Source: Methylocapsa sp. D3K7 (GTDB taxonomy: Bacteria > Pseudomonadota > Alphaproteobacteria > Rhizobiales > Beijerinckiaceae). Taken from it: a DNA stretch of 64,000 nt. Positions 17,742-53,009 of the stretch are shown one piece after another. Every line of letters starts with the position of its first letter. The stretch's first letter is position 1. The stretch lies in the NCBI RefSeq assembly GCF_029855125.1, contig NZ_CP123229.1, positions 3,330,501-3,394,500 of the forward strand, given 5' to 3'. A program made the translations under genes and the position numbers. Under the pieces are notes generated by a model. It was not told the DNA's origin. It was given only the letters and a program-made list of their open reading frames with translations, and did no database searches.

Positions 17742-18539
17742 CTACATGACGACGACCTTCGTGCCAACGGCCACCCGCTGGTAAAGGTCGATCACGTCGG
17801 CGTTCATCATCCGGATGCAGCCCGACGAGACGGCCTTGCCGATCGAGTCGGGTTCGTTGGTGCCGTGGATGCGGAACATCGTGTCCTTGTCGCCTTTGAA
17901 AAGATAGAGCGCGCGGGCACCCAGCGGATTCTCAAGGCCGCCCTCCATCTCTTCCGGCAAATCGGGACGGCGCTGCAGCATTTCCTTCGGCGGAATCCAG
18001 CGCGGCCATTCGGATTTGCGGCCGACTCGCGCGATGCCCTTCCACTCAAACCCCTGACGTCCGACGCCGATGCCATATTGGATGGCGCCGCCGCCAGGCT
18101 GAACCAGGTACAAATGCCGCGAGCGCGTGTCGATCACAATCGTCCCAGGCGCCTCACTGGTTGGGTTTTGCACGGCAGCCGCGGTCTTCTGGCTCTGATT
18201 GATGCTGAGTTCGGGATCCTGGCCCCCATAGGGTTGGCCGCGCGATGCCGACTCATAGGGGTCCCCGTACGAAGGCGCCCCATAGGTCTGGCGCCCCCGG
18301 TAATGTTGAGCCGGCGGCGGATCGCCCGGATACACCTCGTAAGGTTCGGAATAGGCAGGATACGCCGGATAGGCGGGATAGGACGGGTAGCCCGGATAAC
18401 CATTGGACGGATAGGCAGGATATGCTTGGTACCCCGAATAATCATGCCATTGCGCAAAAGCCGGCACGGCCGGCAGCAGCAGCGCCAATGCCAGGGCGGC
18501 ACCCAAACTTACTTTCAGGACAAATAATCTTGCACTCAT
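17742..18539 (-). CDS. L,D-transpeptidase (YkuD family) with Tyr/Pro-rich linker
   Basis: A 265-residue exported enzyme that forms 3-3 peptidoglycan cross-links or anchors proteins to peptidoglycan. Residues 1 to about 29 are a signal peptide ending in PAFA. Residues about 35-100 are a low-complexity Tyr/Pro/Gly tract (repeats of YPAYP) likely to span or bind the cell wall. The catalytic YkuD domain ends the protein, with H225 and C241 in HGTNEP...SSGCIRMMN. A paralogue lies directly upstream on the same strand. The Tyr-rich tract differs from the neighbour and makes the N-terminal half unlikely to be catalytic. Confidence 0.93.
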   Translation of the reverse strand: MSARLFVLKVSLGAALALALLLPAVPAFAQWHDYSGYQAYPAYPSNGYPGYPSYPAYPAYPAYSEPYEVYPGDPPPAQHYRGRQTYGAPSYGDPYESASRGQPYGGQDPELSINQSQKTAAAVQNPTSEAPGTIVIDTRSRHLYLVQPGGGAIQYGIGVGRQGFEWKGIARVGRKSEWPRWIPPKEMLQRRPDLPEEMEGGLENPLGARALYLFKGDKDTMFRIHGTNEPDSIGKAVSSGCIRMMNADVIDLYQRVAVGTKVVVM

Positions 18540-46558: not shown

Positions 46559-48925
46559 TCACGGTTTTGGCACTTGCGGTACGGTCGGTGCGGCAATCTT
46601 TTTGAGCTTCGCCTTGTCGGCCTCGGAAAGCCCAGGGGCACTAGCGCAATGCGCTTCGTCTAGGAAAGCAGCCGCGAGAGACTTTGGCACATCTCTTCGG
46701 ACGGCAAGGTCGAGAATTTTCTCCAATTGACTGACCAGCGCAGAAAGCACAGAGGGCGTTCCAGCGCAGCCAACCTCGCGCCACTGCCCGGCGAGGTTCC
46801 TCTCAAAGACCTCTCGAGTGGGAGTCTCGCGTTCGCGAGCAGTCCACATCTTTGCTATCTCGTTTTCGCCTTCCAGGGCCTTTGTTGGATCAAGGCGTTG
46901 CTCGATCCTTCCCATGGCGGCGTCCTTGTTTTCGCCTTCGGGAACCTCTTCGGTGATGAGCTGCTTGAGTTTCGCGAAGGAATCCACCGTCCAGTCGCAT
47001 TGATCTGAATTCGTAAGAAATTCTACTTTAACTTTATCTCCTTTCGGGCCAGTCTGCCCTGTCTGCGTGGAAGCGACAAATGTATCCTTCCAAGCCGCCG
47101 TTCGAGCGTCGGCTCTCCAGACACAGACAATTCCAAACACCCCCCCTATAAACGCGTCATCGAGTTTCGTGGTTTCGAGCGAGGCGCCCTGGAGCTGCGC
47201 ATTGAACAGCAAAGCGCCCTGGAGCTGCGCGTCGTCGAGCGAGGCGCCCTGGAGTTGCGCATTGAACAGCAAAGCGCCCTGGAGCTGCGCTTCGTTGAGC
47301 GAGGCGCCCTGAAGGTGTGCGCCATTGAGCGATGCGCCTTGGAGTTCCGCGCCGTGGAGTGAGGCCCCTCGGAGTTCCGCTTCATCGAGTGTAGCACCCT
47401 GGAGGTGCGCTTTATCGAGCGAGGCGCCCTGGAGCTGCGCCTTTTTGAGAGACGCGCCCTGGAGCTGTGCTTTTGGGAGATCAAGGGCATCTCGAAGGTA
47501 CGCGCCGTTCAATGAAGCGCCTTGGAGCTGCGCATTTTCGAGCGAGGTGCCCTCGAGGCGTGCATGGTCGAGCGAGGCGCCCTGAAGCTCGGCGTCTTTG
47601 AGTGAAGCGCCCTGTAGCTGCGCTTCGCGGAGCGAGGCGCCTTGAAGCTGCGCCTTTTCGAGCGAAGCGCCCTGAAGCTCTGCGCCGTCGAGCGAAGCGC
47701 CCCGGAGGTTTGCTTCGGGGAGGTTTAGGGCACCCCGGAGGTGTGCACCGTTGAGCTGGGCGCCCTGGAGTTGGGCTTCCTTGAGCGAAGTGCCTTGGAG
47801 CTGCACTTCGTGTAGCGAGGCGCCTTCGAGCTGCGCTTTGCGGAGCGAGGCGTCGCGAAGCTGCGCACGGTCGAGCCGCGTCTGCTCCGCCCATACATCG
47901 TTGAGGTTGGCGCGATTGAGGATTGCGTCTGAAAAATCAACATGTCGAACATCCGCTTCGCGCAAGTTCGCGCCCGTCAGATCGCGACCCGCAACGAACA
48001 AAGCGGCGACCCATCTCTGTGCTCCGGCCGAGCCTTCGTTCTTTTTGATAATATCTGAGAGTTTTGTGTCCTCGATCAAATCTTCCCCGTGGAGGTCCAA
48101 TGTGTTGGTCGGCGTCCGCAGATAGGTTGATCCATGCAGCCATTGGGTCGCGAGATAGATGCGCTCATCCGGAAACGTCGCCACCATCACCGCATAAGCC
48201 AGCGCGGCTGCGCTTCCTATTCCTGGCACGACGAGCCCCCAAGTCGCCTTTGGCCGTAGCCGAGCCCCCCAACCGCTTCGATAGCCCGGCCATAGGGTCC
48301 ACACGAGTGCGAGGTCGAGCGCTAGCAAGCCGCGATGCAGCCAAGTGATAGGCTCGCTGTGATAGGGCAGGAACTTGATTTGGATCATCAGCAGCAAAGC
48401 GACCGGCGCGAGCGCGAGAGTTATGAGCGCCATGAGGCTCAACAGCTTGGCGTTGATCCCTTTGCGCTCCAGTCTGCCACCGACCAAGAGCTGCACGAAA
48501 AGCGTGTTTTCGATGCGCATGCGAAAATTTTCGCGCGCCTTCTCATTCTCATCGTTCTCATTTTTTGGAAAGGCACTTTGCAGCGCATCCTCAAAAGAGT
48601 TCGCCGTGCGGGCAAGCAGCACGAGGTTCAACAGCATATAAAAATGGAAGGTGACGAAAATAATCGGCGTGAGGATATAGAAAGCCAAAAGCGGCAATGG
48701 GATATTGAGCACCGGCAGATTGAGCGGGCTTTCCAAAAAAAGCATGCGATGCGTGGTCGTACCCGTCGCGATCGCAAGATAGAGCATGAAAATGAGAAAA
48801 CTGAACCACAGGGTCTGGACGCGCTCGGCGGAGTGGTTGAGCGAGGCGGCCAGCGCCTCGGCCTCTTTTGTGTCAGGCGCGCTTGGTTTTGCGTCCTCCG
48901 CCAATTCGTAGAACATCGCCCTCAC
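46559..48925 (-). CDS. Membrane-anchored pentapeptide-repeat protein
   Basis: A 788-residue protein. The first 260 residues contain four to five membrane helices (for example WFSFLIFMLYLAIATGTT and LLAFYILTPIIFVTFHFYMLLNLVLLA). Residues about 315-570 are an uninterrupted series of pentapeptide units on the A(D/N)LxX theme (many LQGASL, LQGAQL units), predicted to fold into a right-handed quadrilateral beta-helix, and the last 200 residues are a helical, charged domain. The repeat region is also a DNA tandem repeat (for example 47190-47290). Start could be the fourth codon (MFYELAED). Exported or cytoplasmic orientation of the helix is not known. Confidence 0.85.
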   Translation of the reverse strand: MRAMFYELAEDAKPSAPDTKEAEALAASLNHSAERVQTLWFSFLIFMLYLAIATGTTTHRMLFLESPLNLPVLNIPLPLLAFYILTPIIFVTFHFYMLLNLVLLARTANSFEDALQSAFPKNENDENEKARENFRMRIENTLFVQLLVGGRLERKGINAKLLSLMALITLALAPVALLLMIQIKFLPYHSEPITWLHRGLLALDLALVWTLWPGYRSGWGARLRPKATWGLVVPGIGSAAALAYAVMVATFPDERIYLATQWLHGSTYLRTPTNTLDLHGEDLIEDTKLSDIIKKNEGSAGAQRWVAALFVAGRDLTGANLREADVRHVDFSDAILNRANLNDVWAEQTRLDRAQLRDASLRKAQLEGASLHEVQLQGTSLKEAQLQGAQLNGAHLRGALNLPEANLRGASLDGAELQGASLEKAQLQGASLREAQLQGASLKDAELQGASLDHARLEGTSLENAQLQGASLNGAYLRDALDLPKAQLQGASLKKAQLQGASLDKAHLQGATLDEAELRGASLHGAELQGASLNGAHLQGASLNEAQLQGALLFNAQLQGASLDDAQLQGALLFNAQLQGASLETTKLDDAFIGGVFGIVCVWRADARTAAWKDTFVASTQTGQTGPKGDKVKVEFLTNSDQCDWTVDSFAKLKQLITEEVPEGENKDAAMGRIEQRLDPTKALEGENEIAKMWTARERETPTREVFERNLAGQWREVGCAGTPSVLSALVSQLEKILDLAVRRDVPKSLAAAFLDEAHCASAPGLSEADKAKLKKIAAPTVPQVPKP

Positions 48926-49209: not shown

Positions 49210-49267
49210 TCAATCGTACCAAAACGTTTCACGTGAAACATTTGGGGATTATAACCTTGACAAAAGT
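49210..49267 (+). repeat. Left inverted repeat of the IS element
   Basis: Reads TCAATCGTACCAAAACGTTT, then a 14-base segment absent from the right copy, then GGGGATTATAACCTTGACAAAAGT. The extra segment completes the parS-like palindrome. The inner TTGACA (49257-49262) points into the element. Confidence 0.7.
49225..49240. promoter_or_regulatory. parS-like centromere palindrome
   Basis: CGTTTCACGTGAAACA, identical to the ParB-binding consensus TGTTTCACGTGAAACA except for the first base; the 14-base core GTTTCACGTGAAAC is a perfect palindrome. Chromosomal parS sites normally cluster near the replication origin and parAB. No parAB, gidAB or dnaA gene is within this window. Confidence 0.65.
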
Positions 49268-49325
49268 TGACCCAAATGTTGAAAGCGCAGTGCGTGACAG
49301 GCCGGACTCTGATTCGGCGCGTTCG

Positions 49326-50039
49326 TCAGGGCGCGTCGATCGCGGCTGTATCCCGATTGGCGAGGGCGCGAAACGCTTCAACGATGCCGTCAACAAGTTG
49401 CACAAGCTCATGCAGCGTTGGGATGATTTCCCGCCCCGCAAGCCCAACTTCGTTTGGGAAGATGAGTTTGATTTCCGTTGGGGCGTTAGGGTCGCCGATG
49501 ACTCTGGGGTTTATCCTTCCGTCGTCTTCCCACATTTGGATGACAGGGGAGGCGGTGGTAATTGCGTTGGGAATCAGCGCCCGGTGCTTGTCTTGAATAT
49601 CAAGATCGTGAATCGCGCGGAGTGCGGCGTTCCCGTTGTGGTGAGGCTTCATGCTCACCAAAAGAGCCACTGCGTCGGTCCCGGCGCGGTTAAATTTACG
49701 TTTCTTAATCATGTGTTCTAGTTCGTCAGCGCTCTTGCTGAACGGAAAATATACGTCCTCATCATTTTCATCGGCTGCCCGCACTATTTCACATGCGGTT
49801 AGGTCTAGGGCGGTCCTGAGATTGTGGATAACGTCGCCGATGATCGCTCCCAGCCATTCCGGGGCGGCTTCGACATTGAGGGTGAAGTTAAATTCTATGC
49901 CGCCCCTCGCCTCCGCGAGTTCGACAGTGAATCGAGCTGGGTTGCTCGCGATGAAGGCCGCAGCTTCTGTTTCAAGTTCAGCTAGGTGTTTTTGGGCGCG
50001 CCTGATTTTTGTGGTGGCATCTGAAAAGGGATATTTCAT
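49326..50039 (-). CDS. IS passenger gene, hypothetical protein with HEPN-like helical pattern
   Basis: A 237-residue soluble protein. The helical segment IIGDVIHNLRTALDLTACEIVRA and the later LRAIHDLDIQDKHRALI are a pattern I associate with uncharacterised HEPN-like or helical proteins found near mobile elements; the fold is not proven. A GAGAGAA ribosome site precedes the start. It is the second gene of a two-gene unit with 50071-50535 (31-base gap) inside the IS element. No catalytic motif is identified. Confidence 0.6.
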   Translation of the reverse strand: MKYPFSDATTKIRRAQKHLAELETEAAAFIASNPARFTVELAEARGGIEFNFTLNVEAAPEWLGAIIGDVIHNLRTALDLTACEIVRAADENDEDVYFPFSKSADELEHMIKKRKFNRAGTDAVALLVSMKPHHNGNAALRAIHDLDIQDKHRALIPNAITTASPVIQMWEDDGRINPRVIGDPNAPTEIKLIFPNEVGLAGREIIPTLHELVQLVDGIVEAFRALANRDTAAIDAP

Positions 50040-50070
50040 GAATAAATTCTCTCATTCCAGAGAGGCACAG

Positions 50071-50535
50071 TTACTCAATCCATCGGGCATTGCCCGCCAC
50101 TAAGGCATCATGAGACGGTCGGAGTTCGTTATGACACCTCGGGCAGAAAAATCCGCCACCTCCACCACTCTTAATGCGTGTGCGTTGGATAATTTCGACT
50201 CTGCGCTCGCCGTAGCAATGTGCACATATCCAATGCGGTGGTTTGGTGCCGCGAGCATCTGGTTTCAACATGTAAGCGAAAGCACTCCATCCCAAGTCTT
50301 TCAATTCATATTGCTGCTTCTCAGCGTCCCATGTTTCAAAATTAGCCACTTCTTTTTCAAGCGCGCGTATGCGCTCAACCAACGAAAATTGCGCCGATTG
50401 TGCGGAAAGGATTTCTTTTTGAAGGTCTATGACCGCCCGGTCTCGAGCGGTAGTATCGTGGATATCTTGCAAAGCCTTCGCCATATCAAACATGGTCTTG
50501 AAAGCGCTGAGACCAGCAAATATCTCGGCGGTCAT
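50071..50535 (-). CDS. IS passenger gene, coiled-coil protein with zinc-ribbon
   Basis: A 154-residue protein. Residues about 25-75 form a long helix or coiled coil, and the C-terminal part has two CxxC pairs (ICAHCYGER and FFCPRCHNE) about 25 residues apart, a zinc ribbon. The start at 50535 is preferred over an upstream frame that reads a leader into the divergent small gene. It may act in DNA binding or be carried as cargo. Function unknown. Confidence 0.65.
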   Translation of the reverse strand: MTAEIFAGLSAFKTMFDMAKALQDIHDTTARDRAVIDLQKEILSAQSAQFSLVERIRALEKEVANFETWDAEKQQYELKDLGWSAFAYMLKPDARGTKPPHWICAHCYGERRVEIIQRTRIKSGGGGGFFCPRCHNELRPSHDALVAGNARWIE

Positions 50536-50574
50536 GATTTTCGCCCTAATGATGATTCGTGCTAAAGTATAGGC

Positions 50575-50754
50575 ATGACAGAGAAAATTCCAAAGAAACC
50601 GCCAGACATTGCGACCCGGATTATGGAGAGCATGGCCCGCATGCCGCCCAAGCCACATGAAGATATGAAACTTGGAACGCATAAGCGGCCGAAGCCGGTT
50701 AAGGAACGGCCAGCTTCAAAGGGCCGGATCCATAAAGGGAAATCTCACGCTTAA
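50575..50754 (+). CDS. Small basic passenger protein, 59 residues
   Basis: An ATG at 50575 opens 59 codons ending at TAA 50754. The product is basic and proline-rich (MTEKIPKKPPDIATRIM, KLGTHKRPKPVKERP, SKGRIHKGKSHA) with no membrane segment or motif. A purine-rich AAGTATAGG precedes the start. It is divergent from the zinc-ribbon gene by 39 bases and convergent with the transposase. Too short for automatic calling in many pipelines. Confidence 0.5.
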   Translation: MTEKIPKKPPDIATRIMESMARMPPKPHEDMKLGTHKRPKPVKERPASKGRIHKGKSHA

Positions 50755-50760
50755 GCTATT

Positions 50761-50790
50761 TCTTTCTTCGCCAACGAAGAAAGCGTTTAG
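50761..50790. terminator. Hairpin between passenger gene and transposase gene
   Basis: CTTTCTTCG pairs perfectly with CGAAGAAAG around a four-base loop (50762-50783), followed on the plus strand by CGTTTAGCTTTTTG. It lies between the convergent small gene (stop at 50754) and the transposase stop (50799), so it could serve both strands. Confidence 0.55.
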
Positions 50791-50798
50791 CTTTTTGT

Positions 50799-51728
50799 CT
50801 AAAGGGGCGTGCCTTCACCAGTCCGCCGATATGTTAAACGCTTTCCGGTGATCCCGGCCGCAATCTTTGTGACGCGCTCTTTGTCGTTGACGCCAAGGCG
50901 TGAGCGATTGTTGTATCGAAAATCGAACTCGGCAAGGTAGCGATGTAGATGCTTTTCATCGCAATGCTGATAAACGCCCTTCATGCCACGCTTGAAGATG
51001 CTGAAATAGCCTTCAATCGTGTTGGTGTGAACATCGCCACGAACGTATTCATCGGCCTTGTGGCTCACGGTCTCATGGCTCGCAAAGTCAGAACTTAGAC
51101 GGCTATAGTGGCCACCTTCGTCAGTCATCATCGCGGTTTCTTTCGCGACGTTTTTGCGGATGATCGGCATAACATCGGCAGCGCTGGTGCCGTCGATATG
51201 GAACGAACGAACACTCCCGCCGCGCACGACAAGCGATAGCACTGCGTTCTTGTGGCCGTGGCCGCGACGTTTAACGGAATCTTCCTTGCGGCCTATGAAA
51301 GTTTCGTCGGCCTCCACTACGCTGCCCTCGCCGCCCATCGGCGCAAGGCCACCAACGCGCATTGCTTCACGGATGCGGTGCATCATGAACCATGTGCTTT
51401 TGTAGCTAATGCCGAGCATGCGATGCAGTTGATGTGAACTAATGCCTTTCTTAGACGAGCCAATAAGGTGCATCGCCAGCCACCATTTGGTGAGCGGGAT
51501 CTTACTTCTCTCAAAAACCGTTCCCACAGTTGCCGTGAATTGCTTTCCACATTCATTGCAGTAGTGCAGGCCGGGGCGGACGCTTTTCGTTTCTAGTTTT
51601 GCAATCTTGCTGGCGGCGGCATTGCCGCAATGCGGGCATGTCGGACCATTGGGCCAAACAACAGCTTCGAGCGCTTCGCGGGCTAAGGTTTCGTCGGTAA
51701 AGCGTGGGTCTTGAAGTTCGGCAGACAT
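50799..51728 (-). CDS. IS1595-family transposase, ISXO2-like
   Basis: A 309-residue DDE-type transposase of the IS1595 family. An N-terminal zinc-ribbon (CPHCGN, CNECGK, residues about 32-62) is followed by a helical DNA-binding part and the catalytic domain: first acidic residue in VEADETFIGRK, second in MTDEGGHYS, third/asparagine position in NTIEGYFSIFKRG. The frame is full length and intact. It reads from a promoter formed by the right inverted repeat (TTGACA at 51775-51770, 16 bases, TAGTAT). It is the mobility gene of the surrounding element. Confidence 0.93.
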   Translation of the reverse strand: MSAELQDPRFTDETLAREALEAVVWPNGPTCPHCGNAAASKIAKLETKSVRPGLHYCNECGKQFTATVGTVFERSKIPLTKWWLAMHLIGSSKKGISSHQLHRMLGISYKSTWFMMHRIREAMRVGGLAPMGGEGSVVEADETFIGRKEDSVKRRGHGHKNAVLSLVVRGGSVRSFHIDGTSAADVMPIIRKNVAKETAMMTDEGGHYSRLSSDFASHETVSHKADEYVRGDVHTNTIEGYFSIFKRGMKGVYQHCDEKHLHRYLAEFDFRYNNRSRLGVNDKERVTKIAAGITGKRLTYRRTGEGTPL

Positions 51729-51747
51729 GGGAAGCTCCTATGCCCAC

Positions 51748-51775
51748 ATACTACCTATTGCTGCACTTTTGTCAA
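51748..51775 (-). promoter_or_regulatory. Candidate transposase promoter at the right IS end
   Basis: On the minus strand TTGACA (51775-51770), a 16-base spacer and TAGTAT (51753-51748) lie 20 bases before the transposase start at 51728. The -35 hexamer belongs to the inverted repeat itself. Confidence 0.5.
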
Positions 51776-51808
51776 GGTTACAATTGCCAAACATTTTGGT
51801 ACGATTGA
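51765..51808 (-). repeat. Right inverted repeat of the IS element
   Basis: Read on the minus strand it is TCAATCGTACCAAAATGTTT, then GGCAATTGTAACCTTGACAAAAGT, matching the left repeat except for a 14-base gap in the middle and scattered substitutions. Its outer end is four bases from the neighbouring stop codon. Confidence 0.7.
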
Positions 51809-51812
51809 CAGG

Positions 51813-53009
51813 TCAGCGGCCGCGCAGAGCGGTCAGGACCGAGACGCAGGCGCGGCCATCCGGATGCAAGCCGGACTTTGCTTGAAAGTCTGTGATCGCC
51901 TGTTTTGTTTTGGTCCCGATGACGCCGTCCGCCTTGCCGTCGAGATTATAGCCGCGCCGCATCAGCAGCGTTTGCATCTCGCGGCGGTCGGCGCGCGACA
52001 GGCCAGGATCGTTGGTGGGCCATGCCGTCGCGAGGCCGTGCCGCCCGCGCAGCCGGTCGGAGAGCAGCGCGATCGCCAGCGCATAGGACTCCGCCGCATT
52101 GTAGGAATAGATCGCATCGAAATTGCGGGTTACGAGAAAAGCGGGACCGGCGGGACCGGCGGGCAGCAGCAGCCCCGCGCTTCCGCCGCCCGGCAGATGC
52201 GATCCGTCGATCCGGGTCACGCCCCGCCCGGCCCAGGCGCCCATCGGCTCCTTATGGGTGCGCCCGGAGGGACCCGCATAATGCTCCGGCAGGCGGACCT
52301 CATAGCCCCATTCGAGGCCGGGAACCCAGCCGCCCTTGCGCAAATAATTCGCCGTCGAGCCCACCGCGTCAGGAGCGGAATTGATGAGATCCTTGCGGCC
52401 GTCGCCGTCGAGATCGACCGCCGTCGCGAGGAAGGTTGAGGGCATGAACTGCGTATGGCCGAAGGCGCCCGCCCAGGAGCCATTGAATTGGGCGGGATCG
52501 ATGTCGCCATGCTGAATGATTTTCAGCGCGGCGAAGAGTTCGCCCCTGAAATAGCTTGCGCGCCGATGGCTGCTGCAGGCAAGGGTCGCGAGCGACTGCA
52601 CCACCGGGCGGGTGCCAAAGCTGCGGCCAAAATCGGATTCAACGCCCCAGACGGCCGTGATCGTCGCCGGGTCGACGCCGAAACGGCTTTGCGCGAGCGC
52701 CAGCGCCTGGCCATAGCGGGCCATCATGGCCTGCCCGTCGCGCACTCGCTCGTCATCGACGAGCCCGGCGAGATAGTCCCAAATCGGCGTCTTGAATTCC
52801 GGCTGGACCTGCGACATGGCGAGCACGTCGGGATTGGGCGTCAGCCCGCGTGTGATCTTGTCGAAGGTCGCGGCTTCGACGCCGCTCGCTTGCGCGGCCC
52901 CCCTGAGACCAGCGAGGCAATCGGAAAAGCTTCCTGCGCTGGCTTGCGTGGCGGCGAGAGCGAGGCCGAGAGCCAAGCCAAGCGCAAGGCCGCCTGAGAG
53001 ACGCCGCAT
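51813..53009 (-). CDS. Lytic murein transglycosylase with peptidoglycan-binding domain
   Basis: A 398-residue exported enzyme that cleaves peptidoglycan glycan strands. The signal peptide (LALGLALGLALAATQASA) is near the start at 53009. The MltB/SLT_2-type catalytic domain covers about residues 30-310, with the catalytic glutamate in TAVWGVESDFG and the conserved SWAGAFGHTQFMPSTF. A peptidoglycan-binding repeat ends it (about 320-398; MQTLLMRRGYNLDGKADGVIG). The IS element abuts the stop codon, so the transcript end may have been altered by the insertion. Confidence 0.93.
   Translation of the reverse strand: MRRLSGGLALGLALGLALAATQASAGSFSDCLAGLRGAAQASGVEAATFDKITRGLTPNPDVLAMSQVQPEFKTPIWDYLAGLVDDERVRDGQAMMARYGQALALAQSRFGVDPATITAVWGVESDFGRSFGTRPVVQSLATLACSSHRRASYFRGELFAALKIIQHGDIDPAQFNGSWAGAFGHTQFMPSTFLATAVDLDGDGRKDLINSAPDAVGSTANYLRKGGWVPGLEWGYEVRLPEHYAGPSGRTHKEPMGAWAGRGVTRIDGSHLPGGGSAGLLLPAGPAGPAFLVTRNFDAIYSYNAAESYALAIALLSDRLRGRHGLATAWPTNDPGLSRADRREMQTLLMRRGYNLDGKADGVIGTKTKQAITDFQAKSGLHPDGRACVSVLTALRGR

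Follow-up and report, generated by a model that had tools for sequence, protein, structure and literature searches.

Are the long inverted repeats around an IS1595-type transposase gene in Methylocapsa sp. D3K7 the ends of a transposon, or do they belong to the chromosomal site that it struck? The window analysed here is a 64,000-nt stretch of this genome (NZ_CP123229.1, positions 3,330,501 to 3,394,500), for which a preliminary description had proposed, at 49210-51808, a passenger-carrying element ending in imperfect repeats of 58 and 44 bp. We find that the transposon is an ordinary member of the IS1595 family and that the surprise is the host site struck, a palindrome around a 14-bp core, GTTTCACGTGAAAC, which we take, from the consensus, to be a full parS core, the binding site of ParB. 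Judged by sequence comparison, palindromes with this core form a chromosome-wide, largely inherited set, and the element (49244-51788) struck one of the 59 dispersed copies, duplicating 8 bp of it. We read these palindromes, with a probability of roughly 0.6, as old, maintained ParB nucleation sites along the whole chromosome, which would also be landing places for IS1595 elements.

The element and the palindrome that it interrupts

The inverted pair 49210-49267 / 51765-51808 is indeed present (84% over 32 nt, 95% over 20 nt). Only its inner 24 bp, however, are the ends of the insertion sequence (IS), the remainder being a 46-bp palindrome split by the insertion, and the two repeat pieces are unequal in length because the left one retains the palindrome centre. 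A target duplication, which the preliminary description had found missing, is formed by the octamer AAACATTT on either side of the element. The features are as follows.

49210..49243, unstranded: the 46-bp palindrome left of the insertion, comprising its left arm, spacer and core and a portion of its right arm
49226..49239, unstranded: parS core GTTTCACGTGAAAC, the sole match in the window with at most two mismatches
49236..49243, unstranded: left copy of the target-site duplication AAACATTT, from repeat comparison
49244..51788, minus strand: IS1595-family element, 2545 bp, from transposase matches and end analysis
49244..49267, plus strand: left inverted repeat of the IS, GGGGATTATAACCTTGACAAAAGT, matching the right repeat at 21/24 positions
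50799..51728, minus strand: IS1595 transposase, 309 aa, from Pfam and NCBIfam
51765..51788, minus strand: right inverted repeat of the IS, pairing with 49244-49267 at 21/24 positions
51789..51796, unstranded: right copy of the target-site duplication AAACATTT, from repeat comparison
51789..51808, unstranded: right part of the interrupted palindrome (duplicated octamer and right arm)

Joined with a single octamer, the two flanks give 46 bp, of which 44 are self-complementary, and the first 44 bp of this joined site stand intact at genome position 3484767 (L018). A parS-like match with at most two mismatches turned up in 15 of 100 shuffles of the window.

The intact transposase of the preliminary description was confirmed at 50799-51728 by NF033547 (193.1 bits, cut-off 75, E 5.4e-57) and by the Pfam families PF12762 (DDE_Tnp_IS1595; 122.4 bits, cut-off 27) and PF12760 (45.4 bits, cut-off 25.4). 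The traits of the IS1595 family were all found, namely an N-terminal zinc ribbon with a DDE domain, 24-bp inverted repeats and an 8-bp duplication. An IS1595-type element with passengers thus stands as described, whereas its long inverted repeats, its borders and the missing duplication do not. The description had also staked its ends on their recurrence with the transposase elsewhere, and here the outer part fails, as related elements show GG...TTGAC-type ends without the palindrome arms. The right edge of the repeat pair, 51808, does lie four bases from the end of the neighbouring open reading frame (ORF) at 51813; the lytic transglycosylase label for that ORF is the description's own.

Dispersed cores on the chromosome and among relatives

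The whole genome contains 61 exact TTTCACGTGAAA cores, whose positions were gathered with two patterns (50, then the last eleven) and were all read; the reversed control pattern gave 0. Two of them (2224458 and 2224741) are situated between mnmG and trmE, with rsmG, parA and parB close by, and are taken as the native parS (gene order trmE-parS-mnmG-rsmG-parA-parB, with ParB over its family cut-off, ParA under the cut-offs and the other genes named by eye), and coarse GC skew from sampled stretches places the origin near 2.1 Mb. The other 59 are dispersed over both chromosome arms, none closer than about 144 kb to the native pair, and these 59 of 61 do not show the near-origin position of parS. 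The 407-kb gap around the native parS arises in 1.6% of random sets, and as the largest gap anywhere in 14%, and is not relied on here. By context, 21 of the 61 sites are convergent, 26 tandem and 5 divergent, with 7 at the edge of a stretch and 2 inside a called ORF; 43 lie within 100 bp of a called gene 3' end, and the median distance to the facing gene 3' end is 53.5 bp in this genome. Genes adjoining the sites include pheS and that of a D-Ala-D-Ala ligase (over cut-off), as well as the end of that of a B12-dependent ribonucleotide reductase.

Each palindrome consists of the 14-bp parS core, a variable 2-bp spacer and two TTTKGTMMGRTT-like arms, 44-46 bp in total, and the half-site GTGAAAC-R-N-TTTKGTMMGRTTG is common to the 59 dispersed sites. 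The core is invariant in all 57 uninterrupted dispersed copies, 12 of its bp having been the search key; when the arms were searched for with the core left free, 53 places were found in this genome, and the exact core was seen at 52 of them. The two arms are of unlike types in 29 of the 57 uninterrupted copies. Outer inverted motifs (AAAACCTTACAA / AATCGGACAA) flank many of the palindromes 29-40 bp from the core centre and hardly occur in exact form in the rest of the window.

A survey of core counts covered 60 genomes, 15 of them in the genus (D3K7 included). Six of these 15 carry 14, 32, 37, 43, 49 and 61 cores, nine carry exactly two, and all 45 genomes from outside the genus have at most five. 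Among 199 genomes of the family, for which part of the genus was drawn, more than seven cores occurred in four, two of the genus and two of one other genus. The latter pair (G108 and G177; e.g. L117, L120, L125) has 16 and 17 TTTCACGTGAAA cores, with different flanks at the eight sites read and, at several sites, ATGTTCACGTTTTGT-like sequence ahead of the core. Five carriers gave 53, 23, 16, 10 and 8 places in the arm search with a free core, and neither G012 nor the nine two-core genomes gave any; with the tallies in the relatives read by eye, the core was exact in 97 of the 110 hits (D3K7 52/53; G003 16/23, one hit being unrelated; G005 14/16; G010 10/10; G006 5/8). The G012 cores have a different left arm (four read). 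TTTAGAA...TTCTAAA-like boxes, which resemble Irr/ICE boxes, flank the native parS of carriers (L046:10400-10790, L211:2890-2990, L275:6040-6180) and are lacking at the native parS read in the nine two-core species; in the G012 sites read, a TTTAGAA-type box is the left arm. A tree of ParB from 14 genomes places the five carriers that have ParB together on one side of a 100/100 branch, the G003 and G005 proteins being partial.

Many of the sites occupy the same places in different species. A partner of a D3K7 site was defined by the same flanking gene (at least 50% identity), the same facing and a similar distance, with five same-side matches below 50% dropped (two in G006, two in G010, one in G005); gene calls in the fetched stretches come from a simple script based on codon usage, and the orthology counts are approximate. 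The test took in 42 sites of G006, 33 of the 37 cores of G005, 20 of 32 in G003 and 10 of 14 in G010, where two more, native ones, were excluded. The same gene junction as a D3K7 site was found for 36 of 105 relative sites against 4 of 179 neighbouring control gaps (Fisher 7.9e-14), that is, for 19/42 in G006 (controls 1/72), 11/33 in G005, 5/20 in G003 and 1/10 in G010, and 26 of the 59 dispersed D3K7 sites have an orthologous partner somewhere. In 34 such pairs, counted by slightly different rules from the 36 matched relative sites and compared without gaps, arm positions outside the search key are 91-100% identical at ±10, 11, 12 and 14 and 88-91% at ±15, and only 38-59% identical at ±13 and ±16, where the arm types switch. 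Identity beyond the palindrome is mostly 30-55%, the exception being the outer motif (-30 to -40) towards the shared gene, with 56-74%. At one junction, at most 257 bp downstream of an aminotransferase gene (aspartate transaminase as best NCBIfam match, slightly below cut-off), G000, G006 and G010 have a core and none of the nine two-core genomes does; in G003 the contig stops at this point, and no hit was obtained in G005 or G012. A recent burst was rejected as the whole explanation, as many sites lie at shared gene junctions with core and arms conserved.

The palindrome has been met by IS1595 elements more than once. Two of the four transposase copies of D3K7 stand at the same palindrome step with 8-bp duplications (L011, AAACATTT; L061, AAACGTTT), a third (L070) has palindrome halves on either side but neither the centre nor the duplication, and the fourth (L071) is elsewhere. 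One element each in G006 (L133), G003 (L135) and G005 (L231, C235) abuts a core at the equivalent step; no second end was recognised for them in the stretches at hand, a targeted search having been made for G006 only. Other fetched carrier copies (L131 in G010, L146 in G003, L138 in G012) are not in a palindrome, and on C238 of G003 an IS1595-like end stands just outside one. Across the genus, 30 of 48 matches had loci, and ends, recognised by eye or by regular expression, can be missed. Besides, two further G006 palindromes (L118, L126) break off after CGTTTTGGG into unrelated-looking sequence, perhaps through other insertions near the same spot. The arm search showed no such palindrome in the nine two-core genomes, yet most carry related transposases. 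We infer that the octamer next to the core is probably a preferred target of IS1595 elements, and this suggests that host centromere-like sites can serve as IS landing pads.

A candidate reader of the cores and the rival explanations

A PF02195 search at E 1e-3 found four places in the genome, one canonical ParB and three proteins that by eye resemble ParB-methylase fusions, and a second, Noc-like ParB was rejected on the look of these three. The canonical ParB scores 204.6, under the Noc cut-off of 315. PMC7383237 links two specificity positions of ParB to parS; these are R and G in this protein, the numbering being placed by eye from a Caulobacter sequence. As the single canonical ParB, with parS-type R and G, this protein would be the likeliest one on the dispersed cores.

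On our main reading ParB would load on cores all round the chromosome, beyond the origin, possibly with a second protein on the arms. The likeliest use would be nucleoid-wide marking, in which ParB and putative partners such as MipZ or SMC might structure the nucleoid or prevent division across it, in the manner of Noc in Bacillus. A bolder version is that one Methylocapsa-like branch may have made the centromere site into an inherited array of about 60 sites, with ParB as a nucleoid-occlusion or genome-wide SMC-loading system; this we hold only tentatively, as a possible but doubtful extension. If true, it would breach the rule that parS stays near the origin, and the arms of each composite site would be for a second protein.

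A number of observations weigh against maintained ParB nucleation. An ectopic parS, or a second parS cluster, in mid-arm is costly to Caulobacter according to PMC5815017, so that 59 functional parS sites would be expected to be harmful. The spacing of the sites is random-like (coefficient of variation 0.90, with 25% of random sets as even or more), which leaves regular spacing unsupported, and there is no depletion towards the terminus of the kind known for Noc sites (deciles from origin to terminus 2, 5, 7, 6, 9, 7, 7, 4, 7, 5). The core is not singled out, since arm positions other than those that define the arm type show about the same conservation. Cores decay in some relatives, as the exact-core tallies given above indicate, down to that of G006; no orthologue was detected for 33 of the 59 D3K7 sites, and none of the 21 fetched G012 sites (of 49) matched one. 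ParB binding is predicted from the core sequence and the parS-type ParB residues, and the position at gene 3' ends together with strong RNA folding (z -4.45 to -6.06 in three of three copies tested) would also suit a terminator.

The palindromes may instead be a non-autonomous element resembling repetitive extragenic palindromes (REP) or bacterial interspersed mosaic elements (BIME), which captured the native parS long ago, spread, and has persisted mostly through inheritance and gene conversion, ParB having no part in it. Such an origin, which we consider unlikely though worth serious attention, would fit the mostly intergenic position with its bias to gene 3' ends, the further shared motifs flanking the palindrome, arms that switch variants at orthologous sites as gene conversion would make them do, and the TTTAGAA-type flank common to G012 left arms and the native parS of the clade. 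It would fit, too, an orthology that is partial and falls with distance from G006 through G005 and G003 to G010, as well as the changed core in 6 of 22 arm-found G003 copies. It fits poorly with the retention of core and arms at shared junctions though the nearby DNA has mostly diverged between species. Moreover, the 44-bp consensus has no match in 50,697 phage or 72,556 plasmid records, from which those of close relatives may be excluded, and the arm-plus-core pattern has none in viral contigs, among which contigs of close relatives may likewise be excluded.

Bidirectional terminators or mRNA 3'-end hairpins, with the parS match incidental, are a distinctly improbable alternative. The short distance to the facing gene 3' end speaks for them, as do the three tested copies, all of which fold far better than shuffles. 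However, the arms show no covariation (89.4% paired cells against 89.5% in shuffles; covariation score 0.077 against 0.082), which, with the unlike arms of 29 of the 57 copies, implies that a paired stem is not what is kept, and it was rejected as the conserved feature. A hairpin, furthermore, has no need of a 14-bp core equal to parS, and no T-run follows the stem by eye. That the long repeats are the transposon's own ends, as their inverted arrangement around the element might suggest, can be dismissed, since the IS ends and a clean 8-bp duplication map inside them and their outer part is found uninterrupted and transposon-free at dozens of other places.

Passenger genes and comparison with known systems

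The three further ORFs that had been described inside the element are confirmed by the ORF list.

49326..50039, minus strand: passenger 1, 237 aa, of no known family
50071..50550, minus strand: passenger 2, 159 aa, with zinc-ribbon-like cysteines by eye; the ORF may begin upstream at 50682
50575..50754, plus strand: passenger 3, a 59-aa basic protein, from the ORF list

Passenger 1 had been called HEPN-like, for which no Pfam, NCBIfam or PADLOC family gives support. Its best Pfam and NCBIfam matches are ribosomal-factor models far under cut-off, a comparison with the PDB gave no match, tblastn against plasmids gave three weak ones, and a structure prediction was unusable (mean predicted local distance difference test score, pLDDT, 42.6, from an alignment of two sequences); it is 27% identical to the passenger of a second IS1595 copy (L061:2115-2888). 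Passenger 2 matches the phage family phrog_1244, of unknown function (E 3.2e-31), with all Pfam matches under cut-off and one weak PADLOC match, DpdD (E 0.006). The other three IS1595 copies of the genome also contain small basic ORFs (54-62 aa), of weak similarity, with 31 and 34% in the two that were aligned. No defence or toxin marker was found among the passengers in Pfam, NCBIfam, PADLOC or PHROGs, the last of which gave phrog_1244 for passenger 2 alone. Elsewhere in the window, 46559-48925 (minus strand) encodes a 788-aa protein with pentapeptide-like repeats (30-bp repeats in the DNA), named by eye, which a 746-aa protein near the parAB cluster (L046:13068-15308) resembles by eye, and short direct repeats with 9-bp and 33-bp spacing lie at 18351-18440.

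The ends of IS1595-family elements begin with GG, and the family makes an 8-bp target duplication. The window element has both, along with the zinc ribbon and the ISXO2-like DDE transposase; it differs in its three passenger ORFs, and in that three of the four D3K7 copies lie in a parS-cored palindrome or beside its remnant. REP and BIME are short intergenic palindromes near gene 3' ends that are used as IS targets. The palindromes described here share this position and are likewise hit by IS, but many copies stand at orthologous places and have a parS core.

Scattered palindromes are also known as the sites of SlmA in E. coli and of Noc in Bacillus. About 70 Noc sites, read by a ParB paralogue, are given for B. 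subtilis in PMC4331003, compared with the 59 sites here; unlike in that system, the PF02195 search found no Noc paralogue, the core is that of parS and not a Noc site, and the terminus is not depleted. In P. aeruginosa, ParB is held at many origin-distant heptanucleotide half-parS sites, as PMC10419367 reports. Many sites away from the origin are common to both cases, ParB occupancy being predicted for ours, whereas the cores here are complete palindromes within a conserved composite element.

In chromosomal ParABS systems parS usually lies near the origin, with 20-23 sites in Streptomyces and Listeria according to one review (PMC7333895) and 22 according to another paper (PMC5815017). The former treats the reason why parS sites cluster as an open question. 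At the level of titles and abstract openings, searches of an open-access library gave no account of such a dispersed parS arrangement. A natural clade with up to about 60 full parS cores, beside two-core sister species, is a ready comparison for what ParB and SMC do when loaded everywhere. The dispersed sites share the 14-bp palindromic core with the native ones and differ in being 59 extra sites, chromosome-wide and each within a larger palindrome; this scattered arrangement, with copies at shared places in related species, differs from the usual arrangement of parS.

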